Shown here: positions 9,448 to 15,034 of the stretch, in pieces
How the letters are laid out: every line of letters starts with the position of its first letter
Position numbering within the stretch: the stretch's first letter is position 1
Origin: a virus
Direction: 5' to 3' (one strand)
IMG/VR virus record: IMGVR_UViG_3300017706_000210
Span: 1-27,345 of that record
DNA: 27,345 nucleotides
Program-made: the position numbers and the translations under genes
The notes under the pieces: model-generated
The model's database searches: none
Told to the model about the DNA's origin: nothing
Seen by the model: the letters and a program-made list of their open reading frames with translations, nothing else

Positions 9448-10365
9448 ATGGCAATTTCAAGAGCACAATTAGCGAAAGAGCTAGAGCCTGGTCTAAACGC
9501 ACTTTTTGGGATGTCCTATGATTCCTACGAGAGAGAATATGAAGATATTTTCGTTATCGAGGATTCAAATAGAGCATTTGAAGAAGAGGTTTTAGTAACT
9601 GGATTCGGTTCAGCACCACTTAAGTCTGAGGGACAAGGGGTTCAATTTGATAACGCGTCTGAAAGTTACAGCGCACGTTACACGCATGATACGATTGCGT
9701 TAGCGTTTGCTTTAACAGAAGAAGCAGTCGAAGACAACCTTTACGATTCTTTAGGTAAAAGATACGTTAAAGCATTAGCAAAATCTATGGCTAACACCAA
9801 AGAGGTTAAAGGCGCTGATGTTTTAAACAATGCTTTCTCATCTAGCTTCACAGGAGGCGATGGAGTATCACTTATTAACACTGCCCACACACTATCTGGT
9901 GGTGGAACAGCTGCGAACAGAGCTACTACTATGGCTGACTTAAATGAGGCTTCATTAGAAGACGCATTGATTGATATTTCAACTTTCACGGATGATAGAG
10001 GTTTAACTATTTCTGTCCAAGCTGACAAACTTGTGGTTCCACCACAGTTAGTGTTTGTAGCTGACAGAATCTTAAACTCTCAGCAAAGATCTGGTACAGC
10101 TGATAATGATCTAAACGCAATTAAAAACACTGGGGTTTTACCTGGTGGCTATAGCGTCAACCATTATCTTACTGATCCAGATGCTTTCTTCATCCTTACA
10201 TCTGTAAATAGTGCAGGCGAAGGTCTAAAAATGTTCCAAAGATCTCCAATGGAGACTTCAATGGAACCAGACTTTTCTACTGGCAATATCAGATATAAAG
10301 CGAGAGAGAGATATTCATTCGGTTTCTCTGATTGGAGAGGAATCTACGGATCTCAAGGTGCATAA
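9448..10365 (+). CDS. Major capsid protein (HK97 fold, gpT-like)
   Basis: Main shell protein. The 305 residues match the Mu gpT-like branch of HK97-fold capsid proteins: a helical N-terminal arm (1-40), YARYTHD-type E-loop region SESYSARYTHDTIALAFALT (about 68-90), the spine helix with YVKALAKSMANTKEVKGADVLN, and late strands with KLVVPPQLVFVADRIL, FFILT and the conserved C-terminus YSFGFSDWRGIYGS. There is no delta domain or protease nearby; the separate scaffold gene fills that role. AAGGAGG at 9431-9437, 10 bases upstream, is among the strongest ribosome sites here, as expected for an abundant product. A strong terminator follows. Confidence 0.92.
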   Translation: MAISRAQLAKELEPGLNALFGMSYDSYEREYEDIFVIEDSNRAFEEEVLVTGFGSAPLKSEGQGVQFDNASESYSARYTHDTIALAFALTEEAVEDNLYDSLGKRYVKALAKSMANTKEVKGADVLNNAFSSSFTGGDGVSLINTAHTLSGGGTAANRATTMADLNEASLEDALIDISTFTDDRGLTISVQADKLVVPPQLVFVADRILNSQQRSGTADNDLNAIKNTGVLPGGYSVNHYLTDPDAFFILTSVNSAGEGLKMFQRSPMETSMEPDFSTGNIRYKARERYSFGFSDWRGIYGSQGA

Positions 10366-10374
10366 TTTGAAGTC

Positions 10375-10401
10375 GTAATACACTTTATTACTCAGTATTA
10401 C
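10375..10401. other. Inverted repeat after capsid gene
   Basis: GTAATAC (10375-10381) and its reverse complement GTATTAC (10395-10401) are separated by 13 bases, just upstream of the terminator. GTAATAC also occurs twice in the gap upstream of terL (2296-2302 and 2314-2320). It may protect the 3' end of the capsid transcript or bind a regulator; there is no further support. Confidence 0.35.
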
Positions 10402-10406
10402 AATTT

Positions 10407-10433
10407 AAAGGGCCTTAACTGGCCCTTTTTTTT
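10407..10433 (+). terminator. Rho-independent terminator after major capsid gene
   Basis: Perfect 8-bp stem AAAGGGCC / GGCCCTTT (10407-10414 with 10421-10428), loop TTAACT, then an unbroken run of eight T (10426-10433) overlapping the stem base. It lies 41 bases after the capsid stop and is the clearest terminator in the window. Confidence 0.92.
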
Positions 10434-10465
10434 GCCTAAAATAAATCAATATATTATGTGTAAAT

Positions 10466-10503
10466 AGTTGCAATTAGTTGCATATTTTAGTATATTAGTT
10501 ATG
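10466..10503 (+). promoter_or_regulatory. Sigma70-like promoter of the accessory island
   Basis: The -35 box TTGCAA (10468-10473) and the -10 box TATATT (10491-10496) are separated by exactly 17 bases; transcription would start near 10503. AGTTGCA is repeated at 10466-10472 and 10476-10482, ten bases apart (about one helical turn), the first overlapping the -35. This arrangement suggests a regulator binding site. It follows the terminator by about 35 bases and precedes the zinc-ribbon gene. Confidence 0.65.
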
Positions 10504-10539
10504 TGGGAATTGAAATTAAAAACAAAAACGGAGGCAAGA

Positions 10540-10755
10540 ATGGCTAATTATGTAGTAAGTAGTAATGACATTATTGATGCAGCATGCACCAATGATGGCA
10601 AAGTATGTGAAAAATGTGGTGGTGACGCAGCTGGAGGTAACAACAAAATCCAGTTCTGTTACGACAAAGTTCTTTGCGAACCATGTGGTGAGATCTTCAT
10701 GGAAGAAAAGAAACAAGATCTTTTAAAAATGATAAAAGAAGGAGGGTTAGATTAA
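10540..10755 (+). CDS. Small Cys-rich zinc-ribbon-type protein
   Basis: 71 residues with CEKC at 23-26 and CEPC at 46-49, spaced like a treble-clef or zinc-ribbon knuckle pair, plus C16 and C40. The C-terminus is a charged helix (MEEKKQDLLKMIKEGG). The likely role is metal binding for structure, with DNA, RNA or protein contact; I do not recognise the exact family. The start at 10540 is set by GGAGG (10530-10534), 5 bases upstream. An in-frame ATG at 10501 sits at the predicted transcription start and so is unlikely to be used. First gene of the promoter-bounded island; its stop overlaps the next ATG (TAATG), so it is translated with the DUF2958 gene. Confidence 0.75.
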   Translation: MANYVVSSNDIIDAACTNDGKVCEKCGGDAAGGNNKIQFCYDKVLCEPCGEIFMEEKKQDLLKMIKEGGLD

Positions 10756-11090
10756 TGAAATTAATAACTAAAGAAATTATGAAGAAGCTCAAAAGATCTG
10801 GAGCAAGACCTGTGCCTGTTACTATGACAGGTAATGATATAAAACCAGTGTTGAAATTATTTAATCCAGTGGGAGCTCAGACTTGGTTGATAGCAGCGAT
10901 TGCAGAAGATGAAGACACTATGTATGGCCTTTGTGATCTTGGGTTTGGTTATCCAGAGCTGGGTTATGTAAGCCTAAGTGAAATAGAAAATCTTGATTTA
11001 CCTTTTGGTTTGAAGATTGAAAGAGATACTTGGTGGGAGCCAGAAAAGACTTTACAAGAATATTACAACGATGCAAAGGAGGCAGCATAA
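10755..11090 (+). CDS. DUF2958 family protein
   Basis: 111 residues with the full DUF2958 signature as I remember it: KLFNPVGAQTWLI (34-46), YGLCDLGFGYPELGYVSLSE (57-76) and PFGLKIERD (83-91). The biochemical role of this family is not established. Its members are best known from plasmids and integrative elements, often near antirestriction-type genes, so its presence in a phage structural region suggests transfer from mobile elements. A strong GAAGGAGGG site lies upstream. Both ends overlap neighbours by one base (TAATG), showing a tightly coupled three-gene unit. Confidence 0.85.
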   Translation: MKLITKEIMKKLKRSGARPVPVTMTGNDIKPVLKLFNPVGAQTWLIAAIAEDEDTMYGLCDLGFGYPELGYVSLSEIENLDLPFGLKIERDTWWEPEKTLQEYYNDAKEAA

Positions 11091-11395
11091 TGGAATATAA
11101 ATCAAGTGATGATGTGATAAAAGACTTAATGCCAAAGGTTATTAAGTTGGTAAGACAAACAGCATACGTTGATCCAAATGATCCAAGAGCTACTAACGCA
11201 GATGTTCTTGGAATAATTGTGGCCAAGTATTTAAAATGGGATGGTGCAGACATTATGGAAACAATGCAATCAGCTCTGGAAGATGCCAACTACCACACAC
11301 TAAACGAAAAATTGTTAGAAACATACAAGGATTGGGAGAACGAAGATCCTGGTGAACTTGACTGGAATAACACAGCCAGTCCTGCACATTATTAA
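11090..11395 (+). CDS. Acidic protein of unknown function in accessory island
   Basis: 101 residues, strongly acidic (about 20 D/E against about 10 K/R, hand count), predicted helical, with an acidic C-terminal stretch around KDWENEDPGELDW. I recognise no family. The start at 11090 is set by AAAGGAGG (11075-11082) and by the one-base overlap with the DUF2958 stop; an in-frame upstream start near 11030 would lie inside that gene. Small acidic proteins of phages are sometimes DNA mimics or anti-host factors, but nothing here proves that. Confidence 0.75.
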   Translation: MEYKSSDDVIKDLMPKVIKLVRQTAYVDPNDPRATNADVLGIIVAKYLKWDGADIMETMQSALEDANYHTLNEKLLETYKDWENEDPGELDWNNTASPAHY

Positions 11396-11409
11396 AGGAG
11401 TAATAAATA

Positions 11410-11892
11410 ATGATACCAATAAATAGAATATTTGTTGACATGGACGGAGTCTTAGCTGACTTCGTCCAGGGCGTTCAAGGGCCAAAGTATTTGAATGGCC
11501 CTTTGACTGACAACTTGTATGACGACAATAAAATTGCACTTAGTAATAAAGGCCTATTTAAAGATTTGCCGCCTATGACTGATATGCAAGATCTGATTGA
11601 CGGTATTAAAGATACTGGTATTTACTGGGAGATCCTAACTTGTACTGGTGAGCTGAACAGAAAAAAAGTAGCACAAGACAAAACCACATGGATCAGAGAA
11701 CATGTAGATCCAGGAGTAGTAATTACTTGTACTTTCAAAGGTGAGCAAAAAGCAGCCTATGCAAAACCTGGTTCTGTACTTATTGACGACAGGCCTAAAA
11801 ACATAAACGCCTGGATCGATGCAGGTGGTATAGGTATTCTCCACACCAATGCAGCTGACACTATTGCGCAGCTGCAAGATCTAATAAACTAG
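11410..11892 (+). CDS. HAD-superfamily phosphatase, 5'(3')-deoxyribonucleotidase-like
   Basis: Probably removes the phosphate from a (deoxy)nucleoside monophosphate or a related small phosphate. 160 residues carry the HAD motifs: motif I DMDGVLADF (10-18), with nucleophile D10 and acid/base D12; motif II in EILTCTG, with T77; a Lys candidate at K114 in GEQKAAYAKPG; and motif IV LIDDRPKN, with D126 and D127. The small cap between motifs I and II is typical of the 5'(3')-deoxyribonucleotidase group. AAAGGAG at 11394-11400 precedes the ATG by 9 bases. Last gene of the island. Nucleotide-pool control is the usual reading, but the precise substrate cannot be told. Confidence 0.88.
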   Translation: MIPINRIFVDMDGVLADFVQGVQGPKYLNGPLTDNLYDDNKIALSNKGLFKDLPPMTDMQDLIDGIKDTGIYWEILTCTGELNRKKVAQDKTTWIREHVDPGVVITCTFKGEQKAAYAKPGSVLIDDRPKNINAWIDAGGIGILHTNAADTIAQLQDLIN

Positions 11893-11902
11893 GTTCCTAG
11901 TT
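11887..11902. promoter_or_regulatory. Palindrome overlapping HAD stop codon and next -35 box
   Basis: Perfect 7-bp arms AACTAGG and CCTAGTT around TT. The left arm contains the TAG stop of the nucleotidase gene, and the right arm runs into the -35 box TTGCAC. It fits an operator for the following promoter; with no T-tract it is a poor terminator. Confidence 0.5.
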
Positions 11903-11936
11903 GCACAAATAACATCCAAAAGGTATTATCGATACT
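11899..11936 (+). promoter_or_regulatory. Sigma70-like promoter restarting the structural genes
   Basis: The -35 box TTGCAC (11901-11906), a 17-base spacer and the -10 box TATTAT (11924-11929), with transcription predicted near 11936. AGTTGCA at 11899-11905 lies exactly 25 bases before the -10, the same offset as in the island promoter at 10466. The two appear to be built alike and could answer to the same polymerase or regulator. Confidence 0.6.
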
Positions 11937-11942
11937 GTACTT

Positions 11943-11981
11943 ATGAATGTTGCGGACATGGTGTTCGCAATGGCTAATTAA
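11943..11981 (+). other. 5' leader with hairpin and 12-codon mini-ORF
   Basis: Between the promoter and the next gene, TTGCGGACA (11950-11958) pairs with TGTTCGCAA (11962-11970), giving a 9-bp stem with one G-U pair and a TGG loop. A mini-ORF, ATG at 11943 to TAA at 11981, spans the hairpin but has no clear ribosome site. The hairpin may stabilise or control the transcript of the following gene; this is weakly supported. Confidence 0.35.
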
Positions 11982-11994
11982 AAGGAGGCTGTTT

Positions 11995-12705
11995 ATGACT
12001 ACGCATTTTACCTCTGGCGTTACCAACGTCAGTTCAACTGGGTCCGAAGGACTCGTAAAGCAACCGAGCAAGCACAAGTATCACGATTACTTTAATGATT
12101 TTGATACATACCTAGCTTCGGATTGGACTATTACAACAACTGAGGATGGCACAGGATCCGCAACTGAGGCATTAGCTGACGGCGATGGTGGTTTACTATT
12201 AGTAACCAACGCAGCTGGAGACAATGACCATGACTTTTTCCAACTTGTAAAAGAAGGCTTTAAATATGAAGCTGGAAAACAACTCGGATTCTACTCCAGG
12301 TTTAAAACAAACGACGCTACTCAATCTGATATTGTTTGTGGTTTACAAATAACCGACACAACACCATTAGATGTTTCAGATGGTGTTTTCTTTATTAAAA
12401 GCGACGGATCTACAACTATTTCTTTTGTAGTAGAAAAAAATGGTACGCAATCTACTTTAGATCTACCAAATGCTGTTGCAGATGATACTTTTATGACTGT
12501 TGGTTATTTATATAATCCTAAAGATCAAAAGTTTCATGTTTATCAAAACAATGTATTAGCTGGCACGGTAGTCAACACTAATGCACCAGATGATGAAGAA
12601 TTAACAGTTAGCTTTGGTATTCAAAATGGAGCAGCAGCTGCAAAGACTATGACAATAGACTATGTACACGCTCTAAAAGAACGTACTAGCTCAACTGAAC
12701 TTTAA
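11995..12705 (+). CDS. Beta-rich virion structural protein (jelly-roll/lectin-like)
   Basis: 236 residues, low in Cys, rich in D, T, G and V, and predicted mostly beta. Alternating segments such as KQLGFYSRFK, IVCGLQITD, GVFFIKSDGSTTISFVVEKN and TVGYLYNP resemble concanavalin-like jelly-roll proteins that I recall as structural proteins of marine phages. It may be a head fibre or decoration protein. The start at 11995 is fixed by AAAGGAGG (11981-11988); in-frame sequence upstream (from a TTG at 11947) lies in the leader hairpin. It is the first gene after its own promoter, consistent with high late expression. Confidence 0.72.
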   Translation: MTTHFTSGVTNVSSTGSEGLVKQPSKHKYHDYFNDFDTYLASDWTITTTEDGTGSATEALADGDGGLLLVTNAAGDNDHDFFQLVKEGFKYEAGKQLGFYSRFKTNDATQSDIVCGLQITDTTPLDVSDGVFFIKSDGSTTISFVVEKNGTQSTLDLPNAVADDTFMTVGYLYNPKDQKFHVYQNNVLAGTVVNTNAPDDEELTVSFGIQNGAAAAKTMTIDYVHALKERTSSTEL

Positions 12706-13428: not shown

Positions 13429-13794
13429 ATGGCAGATAAAAAATCTAAAACACCAAGCAATGTAACAAATCCTAGTTTGTACTCTAGGGTTAAGTCTGAG
13501 GCTAAACGTAAATTTGACGTGTATCCGAGTGCTTATGCAAATGCCTGGTTAGTAAAAACATATAAAAAACGCGGTGGTGGCTACAAAGGTGCCAAAAAAG
13601 CTGCAACAGGTGGAGAAATGAGTAAATTAAAACCAATACCAACAGATAACAAAGGACTTAAAAAGTTACCAAGTAAAGTAAGAAACAAAATGGGTTTCAT
13701 GCGTAACGGTGGTGAAGTAATGATGGTCCAGGGCAGAGGCTGTGGAGCTATGATGCAAAACAAGCGCAAGAAGACCAAAGTACCTAGAAGTTAA
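13429..13794 (+). CDS. Very basic small protein 2 (DUF5872-like)
   Basis: 121 residues in two parts. The N-terminal domain, with LYSRVKSEAKRKFDVYPSA and YANAWLVKTYKKRGGGYK (about 17-55), is a pattern that I recall as DUF5872, shared by phages and large DNA viruses. The C-terminal part has FMRNGGEVMMVQGRGCGAMM (about 89-108) and a basic end NKRKKTKVPRS, a tail found on several small phage proteins. Strongly basic, with no enzyme motif. It starts directly after the stop of basic protein 1, so the two are translationally linked. A virion or DNA-associated role is inferred from charge and place. Confidence 0.78.
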   Translation: MADKKSKTPSNVTNPSLYSRVKSEAKRKFDVYPSAYANAWLVKTYKKRGGGYKGAKKAATGGEMSKLKPIPTDNKGLKKLPSKVRNKMGFMRNGGEVMMVQGRGCGAMMQNKRKKTKVPRS

Positions 13795-13796
13795 TA

Positions 13797-14096
13797 ATGA
13801 GTCTGACCAAATGGTTTAAAGAAGATTGGGTTGATATTGGATCTCCTAAAAAAGGTGGGGGTTTTAATAAATGCGGTAGATCTAAACAAAAAAAAGACGC
13901 TAAAAGAAAATATCCAAAATGCGTACCAGCTGCTAAAGCTGCAAGCATGACCAAGTCAGAAAAGAAATCAGCAGTAAGTCGTAAACGAGCTAAAAAACAA
14001 GGCGTTGGTGGTAAGCCAACAAATGTAAAAACTTTTGCCGCAAAAGGTGGTAAGATAATAAAAAGTTCAAACATGGGATTGTTTGGAAGGAGTTAA
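13797..14096 (+). CDS. Very basic small protein 3
   Basis: 99 residues. The opening KWFKEDWVDIGSPKKGGGF is followed by CGRSKQKKDAKRKYPKCVPA, MTKSEKKSAVSRKRAKKQ and GGKPTNVKTFAAKGG. I recall this Cys-containing basic family in many phages, next to proteins like its two upstream neighbours. The CG-RSK to YPKC pair could coordinate metal. It starts two bases after the previous stop. Likely a DNA- or RNA-binding virion-associated protein, by composition only. Confidence 0.75.
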   Translation: MSLTKWFKEDWVDIGSPKKGGGFNKCGRSKQKKDAKRKYPKCVPAAKAASMTKSEKKSAVSRKRAKKQGVGGKPTNVKTFAAKGGKIIKSSNMGLFGRS

Positions 14097-14097
14097 A

Positions 14098-14325
14098 ATG
14101 AAAGGAACGAAATATATGGCTAATGGAGGCGGTATGAAAGGGACTAAATATAAGTCCATGGGTGGTGGTATGAAAAGCACCAAAGGTTTCTCCAAAGGCG
14201 GAGCTGCTTTGCAAAGCGAAATGAAAGCTAACCCTGGTATGGGCAACATGCCTAAATCAATAATGATGAAACTAGGTGGAGCTGTCAAAGGAACTAAATA
14301 CAAAGCCAAAGGCGGCAAAGTTTAG
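14098..14325 (+). CDS. Gly/Lys/Met repeat protein (basic small protein 4)
   Basis: 75 residues made largely of imperfect repeats MKGTKYxxxGGG: KGTKYMANGGG, MKGTKYKSMGGG, MKSTKGFSKGGA and near the end VKGTKYKAKGGK. The middle is QSEMKANPGMGNMPKSIMMK. Low complexity, basic and probably disordered. I chose ATG 14098, preceded by GGAAGGAG; a TTG at 14083 in the same frame is inside the previous gene. It ends the basic cassette. Its short repeats are of a type that can vary in copy number by slippage. Confidence 0.7.
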   Translation: MKGTKYMANGGGMKGTKYKSMGGGMKSTKGFSKGGAALQSEMKANPGMGNMPKSIMMKLGGAVKGTKYKAKGGKV

Positions 14326-14344
14326 ATTTTAAATATTAAATAAG

Positions 14345-15034
14345 GTGGCGTATTTAATATCAAATATCCCGCAGTTTAAATGCTGGGTACGAAAAGAATT
14401 TACAACCAACCATCAACATGGTCATGGTGAATATTTGCATGCTTTGGCATTTGCAGTTAATACAATCCCAGACAGATCTTTGTCCTTTCAAGTTGTTTTT
14501 ACTGGTTGTGAAACGGATTTTGAAGGTTATCCCGACGAAAACGTACACGGTGGAGCTATGTGGGCCAGGATGCCTATACAAGCTCTTGTTGGCGACATAC
14601 CTTTACCAGAGTGGCCAAAGCCAATGGAAGATCATTTAGCACAACCTTGGGATTGCTTAAGTCACGATCATAGCGTAGTCATACTTGACAGAGTAAGCTC
14701 AAGTCCTTGGTATTGTAAAATAGATGGCGATTTTTATATGGGTAAATATTTATTTACAGTCGATTATACCGATAATTCTATTGCAGATGATCCTGCTCAA
14801 CATAAACAGTCACATGTGTTATATTTGACGGATGCTGGTGAATATACTGGTAATTTTGTAGCTCTACCTAATAATAGAGTTAGAGCAACCAATCCAGCTT
14901 TATGGAGAACAGGTGAAGGCGCACCAGATTTTGCACCATCACAATGGATCCATTCTGCTGAGGCACACGAGAGTTATACAGATCCAGTCAAGACATTTGA
15001 CAATTTGTATGCCTCAGACGAAGATAGAGAGTAA
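14345..15034 (+). CDS. Conserved phage protein, function unknown (GTG start)
   Basis: 229 residues starting from GTG at 14345. It begins AYLISNIPQFKCWVRKEFTT and has a Trp/His/Pro-rich, mixed alpha/beta character: NHQHGHGEYLHALAFAV, GGAMWARMPIQALVG, QPWDCLSHDHSVVILDR and PWYCKIDGDFYMGKYLFTVDY. I recall this family as a conserved unknown in the structural region of marine phages. Several His and Cys could bind metal, but no known site is clear. No separate ribosome site is visible (AAGG overlaps the GTG), so expression may be modest. It leads the adaptor and tail block. Confidence 0.75.
   Translation: MAYLISNIPQFKCWVRKEFTTNHQHGHGEYLHALAFAVNTIPDRSLSFQVVFTGCETDFEGYPDENVHGGAMWARMPIQALVGDIPLPEWPKPMEDHLAQPWDCLSHDHSVVILDRVSSSPWYCKIDGDFYMGKYLFTVDYTDNSIADDPAQHKQSHVLYLTDAGEYTGNFVALPNNRVRATNPALWRTGEGAPDFAPSQWIHSAEAHESYTDPVKTFDNLYASDEDRE

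Follow-up and report, generated by a model that had tools for sequence, protein, structure and literature searches.

Gene and feature content of the capsid junction

We analysed a stretch of 27,345 bases, referred to as the window, which is a complete IMG/VR virus record. Its gene content is that of a tailed phage, with genes for an endolysin, a terminase (PHROG 38), a portal protein (PHROG 1216), GroES, a major capsid protein, a ferredoxin and virion proteins. The closest annotated capsid proteins are those of DSL-LC04 (64% identity) and 023Pt_psg01 (63%), and identity to the capsid proteins of the pelagiphages HTVC023P and HTVC027P and of Roseobacter phage CRP-902 is 61%, 59% and 57%, respectively; the source is an uncultivated marine phage related to HTVC023P-type pelagiphages. 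A DNA search of annotated phages returned a sole match (50 bp, 84%, Pseudomonas phage Lu11), and Rfam returned none anywhere in the 27,345 bases. The ferredoxin-type gene (PHROG 3704, 14345-15034) lies among virion genes and is kept in close relatives. The features from the capsid gene to the virion gene that follows it are:

9448-10365, + strand: major capsid protein gene (PHROG 371, E 1.6e-25); left anchor, part of the backbone outside the island; relatives at 88-100% were used for locating the site
10375-10401, + strand: hairpin GTAATAC-ACTTTATTACTCA-GTATTAC after the capsid stop codon; backbone, with compensatory stem changes in relatives
10407-10434, + strand: intrinsic terminator of the capsid unit (GGGCC stem and T run); backbone, left border of the island
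10463-10506, + strand: island promoter element (candidate), AATAGTTGCA...TATATTAGTTATGTGG, with TTGCAA at 10468-10473 and TATATT at 10491-10496; 42 bits
10540-10755, + strand: cassette 1, family C4, a 71-aa acidic protein with zinc-ribbon-like cysteines; 12/66 islands
10755-11090, + strand: cassette 2, family C5, a DUF2958 protein of 111 aa; Pfam E 3.9e-32; 11/66 islands
11090-11395, + strand: cassette 3, family C6, a 101-aa acidic, predicted helical protein; pI 4.4; 11/66 islands
11410-11892, + strand: nearly fixed last gene, a predicted HAD-type 5'(3')-deoxyribonucleotidase; Pfam NT5C 7.7e-10, PHROG 7.2e-35, motifs
11887-11902, no strand: palindrome AACTAGG-TT-CCTAGTT, sharing bases with the last gene's stop codon; nearest relatives only
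11901-11929, + strand: TTGCAC-N17-TATTAT, a promoter-like site belonging to the next virion gene; forms the island's right border and is part of the backbone
11950-11970, + strand: RNA hairpin in the next virion gene's leader, with an AUGGU loop; part of the backbone, covariation
11995-12705, + strand: next virion gene, right anchor of the site; relatives have their cement/decoration gene here

The original prediction had listed a terminator, a promoter-like site, four genes, strong ribosome sites and TAATG coupling at this place, and all of these are present, with TAATG overlaps at the first two joins of the island (10755 and 11090). Two of the borders it proposed stand, namely the terminator at 10407-10434 and the promoter-like site of the next gene. 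A terminator-like hairpin lies 3' of the capsid gene in the published relatives examined, also at empty sites, and the promoter-like site at 11901-11929 is kept at full sites and at empty sites of the same clade. The CTAGG palindrome, also proposed as a border, was rejected as such because it is present only in the nearest relatives. The terminator is upstream of the unit; downstream of the last island gene, no terminator was found. In relatives, the stem of the hairpin at 10375-10401 changes in a compensating manner (GTAACAC/GTGTTAC, GAAATAC/GTATTTC); this hairpin sits between the capsid stop codon and the terminator, and has the loop end TTACTCA.

On the right side, a strong ribosome-binding site makes 11995, and not 11947, the most likely start of the next virion gene. 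The gene has a weak SO2946-like match (E 0.00087, under the Pfam cut-off), and gene 12716-13117 matches gp55 of CRP-902, which comes after the cement-like gene of that phage. The AUGGU-loop hairpin occurs once in the window, ahead of gene 11995-12705. Its 8-bp stem was paired in 160 of 160 cells (20 distinct sequences), both sides changed in 8 of 8 pairs, and covariation was 0.953 compared to 0.295 when shuffled, in a set formed by the best-pairing stretch around the loop and only by sequences with 8 pairs, a choice that favours pairing; in shifted registers, pairing dropped to 23-49%. The hairpin was missing from a few intervals. Distant empty sites carry a similar loop on a different stem, so that it belongs to the backbone, possibly as a translational operator or a stability element.

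Taken alone, the TTGCAA-N17-TATATT pattern (10468-10496) is an average sigma-70 match, and a generic promoter scan of the region gave 17 sites where 15.6 were expected by chance; the promoter claim therefore rests on conservation. With a 44-bp profile built from 28 sequences, the window's own among them, the island element scored 42 bits and all other matches in the window fell below 0. The element is kept at most filled sites and missing from empty ones. These data support a conserved promoter-like site of the island's own, which is a candidate promoter.

The interval behind the capsid gene is hypervariable

Relatives were gathered from IMG/VR through searches with the capsid, with cassettes 1, 2 and 3 individually and with the left hairpin, and their contigs are metagenomic assemblies. 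Across a first set, the distance from the capsid gene to the next gene ran from 117 to 2558 bp, while portal-to-capsid junctions and the junction after the next gene had a 10th-90th percentile spread of about 55 bases or less; the junctions before and after 13429-14096 were likewise somewhat variable. Upstream of the ferredoxin gene, the junctions round two small genes (13429-14345) vary in relatives, by up to several hundred bases, and this may be a further small insertion site.

We recovered 90 distinct capsid-to-next-gene intervals, of which 14 were shorter than 200 bp, 10 measured 443-622 bp and 66 were at least 700 bp long, with empty intervals of 117-181 bp and a longest filled interval of 2895 bp. 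The 76 filled intervals contained 49 gene orders, built from about 60 families as delimited by a simple purpose-made ORF caller, for which some singleton families are doubtful. Even among 14 intervals with capsid proteins at least 99% identical, nine different gene sets were observed. One pair of contigs, L033 and L035, is full (1951 bp) and empty (174 bp), respectively, with 99.3% identity in capsid DNA and 95.9% in the DNA of the next gene; the empty member retains the terminator and the next promoter, and is without the island promoter, the cassettes and the deoxynucleotidase. Because such a pair exists, the island is dispensable in nature. The prediction of an accessory island inserted behind the capsid gene, ahead of the next virion gene, to be judged by its presence or absence in relatives, is thus borne out: 14 of 90 sites are empty, one of them in a pair with near-identical capsid DNA, and close relatives carry other sets or none, so that the four genes are clearly not a core shared by all of them.

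The island genes differed in how often and where they occurred. The zinc-ribbon-like gene came first in every one of its 12 islands, the DUF2958 gene kept varying partners across its 11, and the deoxynucleotidase was present in 58 of 66 islands, in last position in 57 of the 58. The zinc-ribbon-like, DUF2958 and acidic genes were each seen with other partners or apart from one another, and the three-gene unit at 10540-11395 is therefore one draw and no system; the suggestion that this unit, or the four genes, constitute an undescribed system did not survive the comparison. A fixed four-gene operon with one shared function is accordingly very improbable, given that these three genes occur independently and that nine sets stand behind near-identical capsids. 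Its tight packing and TAATG joins would suit an operon, as would four other contigs in which the same set recurs, with an extra gene of 52-53 aa between the acidic gene and the deoxynucleotidase that is absent from the window.

The near-constancy of the last gene raises another alternative, in which the interval is a nucleotide-metabolism module, the deoxynucleotidase being selected for dNMP breakdown or support of modified DNA and the small genes being accessory or neutral passengers. In its favour, the deoxynucleotidase is the only near-constant gene of the filled islands and has conserved HAD-type motifs, and a deoxynucleotidase and DNA-modification genes have been reported in HTVC023P-type phages (PMC9599517). 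We nonetheless regard this module as quite unlikely, as the deoxynucleotidase is gone along with the rest at the empty site, islands of about 450 bp hold one other gene and no deoxynucleotidase, and some arrays at the second site described below are without it.

The capsid site of a sister group (L152 and L235) holds a different, longer island of 2.6-2.9 kb, with no deoxynucleotidase and with a family of 242-326 aa, C19.

Breakpoints fall near gene starts and at a recurrent seam

DNA identity between the window and its relative L118 is 98% across the first gene and 97% beginning with the last gene; in between, it breaks off shortly past the second start codon and returns at the ATAATG of the deoxynucleotidase. 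Among 83 junction types, the median breakpoint lay at most 30 nt from a gene start in 75, compared to 14% for random positions in the same islands, which is a large effect, without an attached probability since breakpoint pairs share ancestry and are not independent. Many left breakpoints fall 9-16 nt ahead of the start codon, so that the shared stretch includes the ribosome site.

Unrelated neighbours are often joined by a recurrent seam, GGAGGTNGCGTAATG, with the form GGAGGTNGC(G/A)TA-ATG, which gives the next gene its ribosome site and start, while the previous protein ends in -EVA. In four long relatives, a slightly looser form of the seam occurred 9 times in 11.3 kb of cassette sites and 0 times in 343 kb elsewhere (both strands). 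The 17-mer AAGGAGGTGGCGTAATG gave at least 120 IMG/VR matches compared to 10 for a composition-matched control, and 71 of the 83 copies examined have an open frame on their upstream side and a gene on their downstream side. The AAGGAGGT within the seam is an ideal Shine-Dalgarno sequence, and some seam matches fall in unrelated phages; the seam signal is generic in part. The strict seam was not found in the window, whose joins are the variants AAGGAGGGTTAGATTAATG, AAGGAGGCAGCATAATG and AAGGAGTAATAAATAATG.

These properties must be weighed against an explanation by ordinary morons, whereby illegitimate recombination brings in genes singly where a gap behind a terminator tolerates them and no dedicated platform exists. 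The promoter would then be a conserved flank, the seams would be strong ribosome sites, and breakpoints at gene boundaries would follow from selection alone. Selection for working genes does predict such breakpoints, and the Shine-Dalgarno character of the seam, its occurrence in unrelated phages, the window's variant joins and the published relatives that fill the same gap with other genes, without the island promoter, are all as this explanation would have it. However, the seam is absent from 343 kb outside the cassette sites, the last gene is nearly constant, and the same 44-bp promoter element leads a second array of the same gene families, and we judge the moron explanation to be rather unlikely.

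A second site and shared cassettes in other phages

In four near-complete relatives (G001, G002, G004 and G005), the 44-bp promoter profile marks two sites each, 19-21 kb apart, the second being downstream of the capsid site, with scores of 23-53 bits; other matches in these genomes stay below about 5 bits, except for a further copy of 9.9 bits inside the G002 capsid island. The second site lies where the rightward block ends, after a 2OG-Fe(II) oxygenase-like gene (weak OGFOD2-like match), and in G001 and G004 it heads a further array of small genes with the same seam; arrays without the deoxynucleotidase occur here. Five families are common to both sites, with identities of 99% (C21), 79% (C44), 57% (C52), 46% (C12) and 35% (C51), and a relative of the window's acidic gene (40%) is found at the second site of G004. 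The capsid site has a hairpin, a terminator and the promoter, while no clear terminator was found before the promoter copy at the second site. The window ends short of the second-site location.

The capsid site is empty in G003, a member of a sister lineage, and a C14 homologue elsewhere in its genome is preceded by a related promoter. Three promoters with TTGCACAACGACACG were noted in this genome (L251-L253), one before the C14 homologue and another before an operon with a serine recombinase-like gene; the TTGCACAACGACACG promoters are predicted to be a related promoter class in a lineage with empty capsid sites.

The phage G011, whose terminase belongs to a different family (PHROG 2), carries the acidic gene (85%), a deoxynucleotidase (64%) and a C27-like protein together, with four seams, and the gene pool therefore crosses phage groups. 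This array (L270, about 9790-11700 of G011) faces away from the leftward late genes.

Predicted products of the cassettes

We next consider the gene products. The second island protein was named DUF2958 in the original prediction and matches that family (PF11171, 111.3 bits against a cut-off of 21, residues 3-110); the accompanying remark that DUF2958 is typical of plasmids agrees with 194 plasmid and 12 phage records. Its predicted fold, a moderate-confidence model (pLDDT 69, pTM 0.64), had no PDB match, and a bacterial genome scan with DUF2958 peptide patterns found no relative. On plasmids and in other phages, no gene was a constant neighbour of DUF2958, and its surroundings hence provide no functional clue. 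The identity proposed for the last gene, a HAD nucleotidase, is likewise upheld by profile, with NT5C at 39.4 bits against a cut-off of 24.8, and, of the HAD motif series DxDG, T/S, K and DD, the window carries FVDMDGVLADF, LTCTG and LIDDRPKN, which are conserved in relatives; by profile and HAD motifs, its product is a predicted 5'(3')-deoxyribonucleotidase. In contrast, the zinc-ribbon label given to the 71-aa protein comes from its cysteine pattern only and is supported by no profile. The first and third island proteins had no match in family libraries or annotated phages, and the model of the acidic 101-aa protein consists of three helices at low confidence (pTM 0.41).

Cassette products have a median length of 93 aa and a median pI of 4.9, compared to 6.3 for the other small proteins of these phages (p = 5e-4). 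A pool protein of about 200 aa, encoded at L246/L247 (G001 41103-41714) and in the L182 island, is weakly like the DNA polymerase beta clamp (E 0.0035), and could possibly be a short clamp mimic directed against host replication. Other cassettes of relatives are LPD29-like (2.2e-5) and Lar-like (E 0.008), both under Pfam cut-offs. A PADLOC search gave chance-level matches only, and family and defence libraries revealed no recognised counter-defence gene among the window's own island genes. That cassette products act against the host is a best guess from size, charge, turnover and a separate promoter, and we rate it as slightly less likely than not. The pelagiphage HTVC027P has no RNA polymerase gene, its early genes are all of unknown function, and the temporal classes form a mosaic over its genome (PMC12753301), a pattern compatible with the early timing that the island may have.

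A likely gene-cassette exchange site

The interval is quite likely a site of gene-cassette exchange that has a promoter element of its own. Comparison at the level of sequence shows a hypervariable junction, an empty/full pair, breakpoints at gene starts and a second site with the same element and shared families, and also that a phage whose terminase is of another family has the seam and some of the same cassettes. The island would be a separate unit between the capsid terminator and the next promoter, composed of a promoter element, one to six cassettes mostly joined by Shine-Dalgarno/TAATG seams, and the deoxynucleotidase in last position. A gene often carries its successor's ribosome site in its final bases, so that a cassette could be inserted without breaking translation, and exchange would proceed by recombination at the promoter, the seam and the fixed end. 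Host RNA polymerase would transcribe the island independently of the late genes, probably earlier, and the products would target the host or host defences, which would explain the fast turnover of the cassettes.

A more far-reaching interpretation, which we hold to be possible but doubtful, is that of a standardised portable platform with two sites per genome, defined by promoter, plug-compatible seam and fixed end, at which small anti-host genes would swap by short-homology recombination. On this interpretation, exchange would take place both within a genome and between unrelated phages, and the platform would be a counterpart of the integron array that needs no integrase.

Phage genomes contain very many small genes of unknown function, many of them probably host-directed, with few guides as to where to look. 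The promoter element, the seam and the nearly fixed last gene together offer a way of retrieving such genes from ocean viromes by sequence, with a yield here of about 60 families out of 90 intervals; if the cassettes are counter-defence genes, the site would be a ready-made place for finding more. As seam and breakpoint coincide here, the old idea that phages exchange genes at short conserved boundary sequences becomes directly testable. The entity is larger than four genes, being a cassette site, two per genome in relatives, with a conserved promoter element, a recurrent seam and a nearly fixed end. The open-licence papers searched contained no description of the cassette site, and as far as found, what is undescribed is this repeated, promoter-led, seam-joined cassette platform, not the four genes.

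Comparison with known systems

Morons are non-essential genes with their own promoter that lie behind a terminator, between late genes, and are variably present. The site shares with moron or accessory loci (PMC7067206) non-essential genes with their own promoter-like site after a terminator, and variable presence. It differs in that it is multi-gene, repeatedly refilled and present twice per genome, compared to a single insertion, and in that the phage here is not known to be temperate.

Integron arrays consist of an integrase gene plus attC-like sites between genes. The likeness to them lies in a single promoter that precedes a changing series of small, promoterless genes taken from a large pool (PMC8618304), whereas here there is apparently no integrase, there is no recombination-site structure between genes and the array ends in a nearly fixed gene. 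An integron-like mechanism was set aside, since the gene joins are 1-nt overlaps or short gaps and leave no room for attC.

HTVC023P-type pelagiphages have a similar order round the capsid gene, with GroES, three genes, capsid and terminator (PMC9599517, PMC12753301). Their capsid proteins are, however, 59-61% identical to that of the window, and the site is empty (154 bp) in HTVC023P and holds two other genes, gp60 and gp61, without the island promoter element, in HTVC027P.

At its seams, the site resembles the start-associated sequences (SAS) of cluster K mycobacteriophages without being a member of that class. SAS, too, are short and conserved, are not palindromes and lie at the ribosome sites of non-structural genes; they sometimes contain the upstream stop and have conserved bases unpaired with 16S rRNA (PMC3203893). 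The consensus before start codons is GGGATAGGAGCCC for SAS (PMC3203893) and thus different from the seam GGAGGTNGCGTAATG; SAS copies are scattered over the right half of the genome, with no exchange role shown (PMC3203893), whereas the seam is found at two cassette sites, at or near breakpoints.

Finally, promoter early stem-loop elements (PeSLs) of T4-type phages (Arbiol 2010, Comeau 2014), in the account given of them in PMC4503421, combine a stem-loop or terminator with a host-like promoter, are present in more than one copy per genome and flank exchangeable modules of small genes, a layout matched here at the capsid site, with the promoter element repeated at the second site, and they are thought to mediate module shuffling (PMC4503421). 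Relative to the PeSLs of that account, the present phages have two sites per genome instead of many, one behind the capsid gene and one where the rightward block ends. The second copy has no clear terminator ahead of it, the last gene is nearly fixed, and seams join single genes. By their capsid, portal and terminase families, the present phages form a different group, unrelated to T4-type phages. We interpret the site as one that would work like the PeSL shuffling elements but with a variant architecture, and not as a member of the PeSLs.
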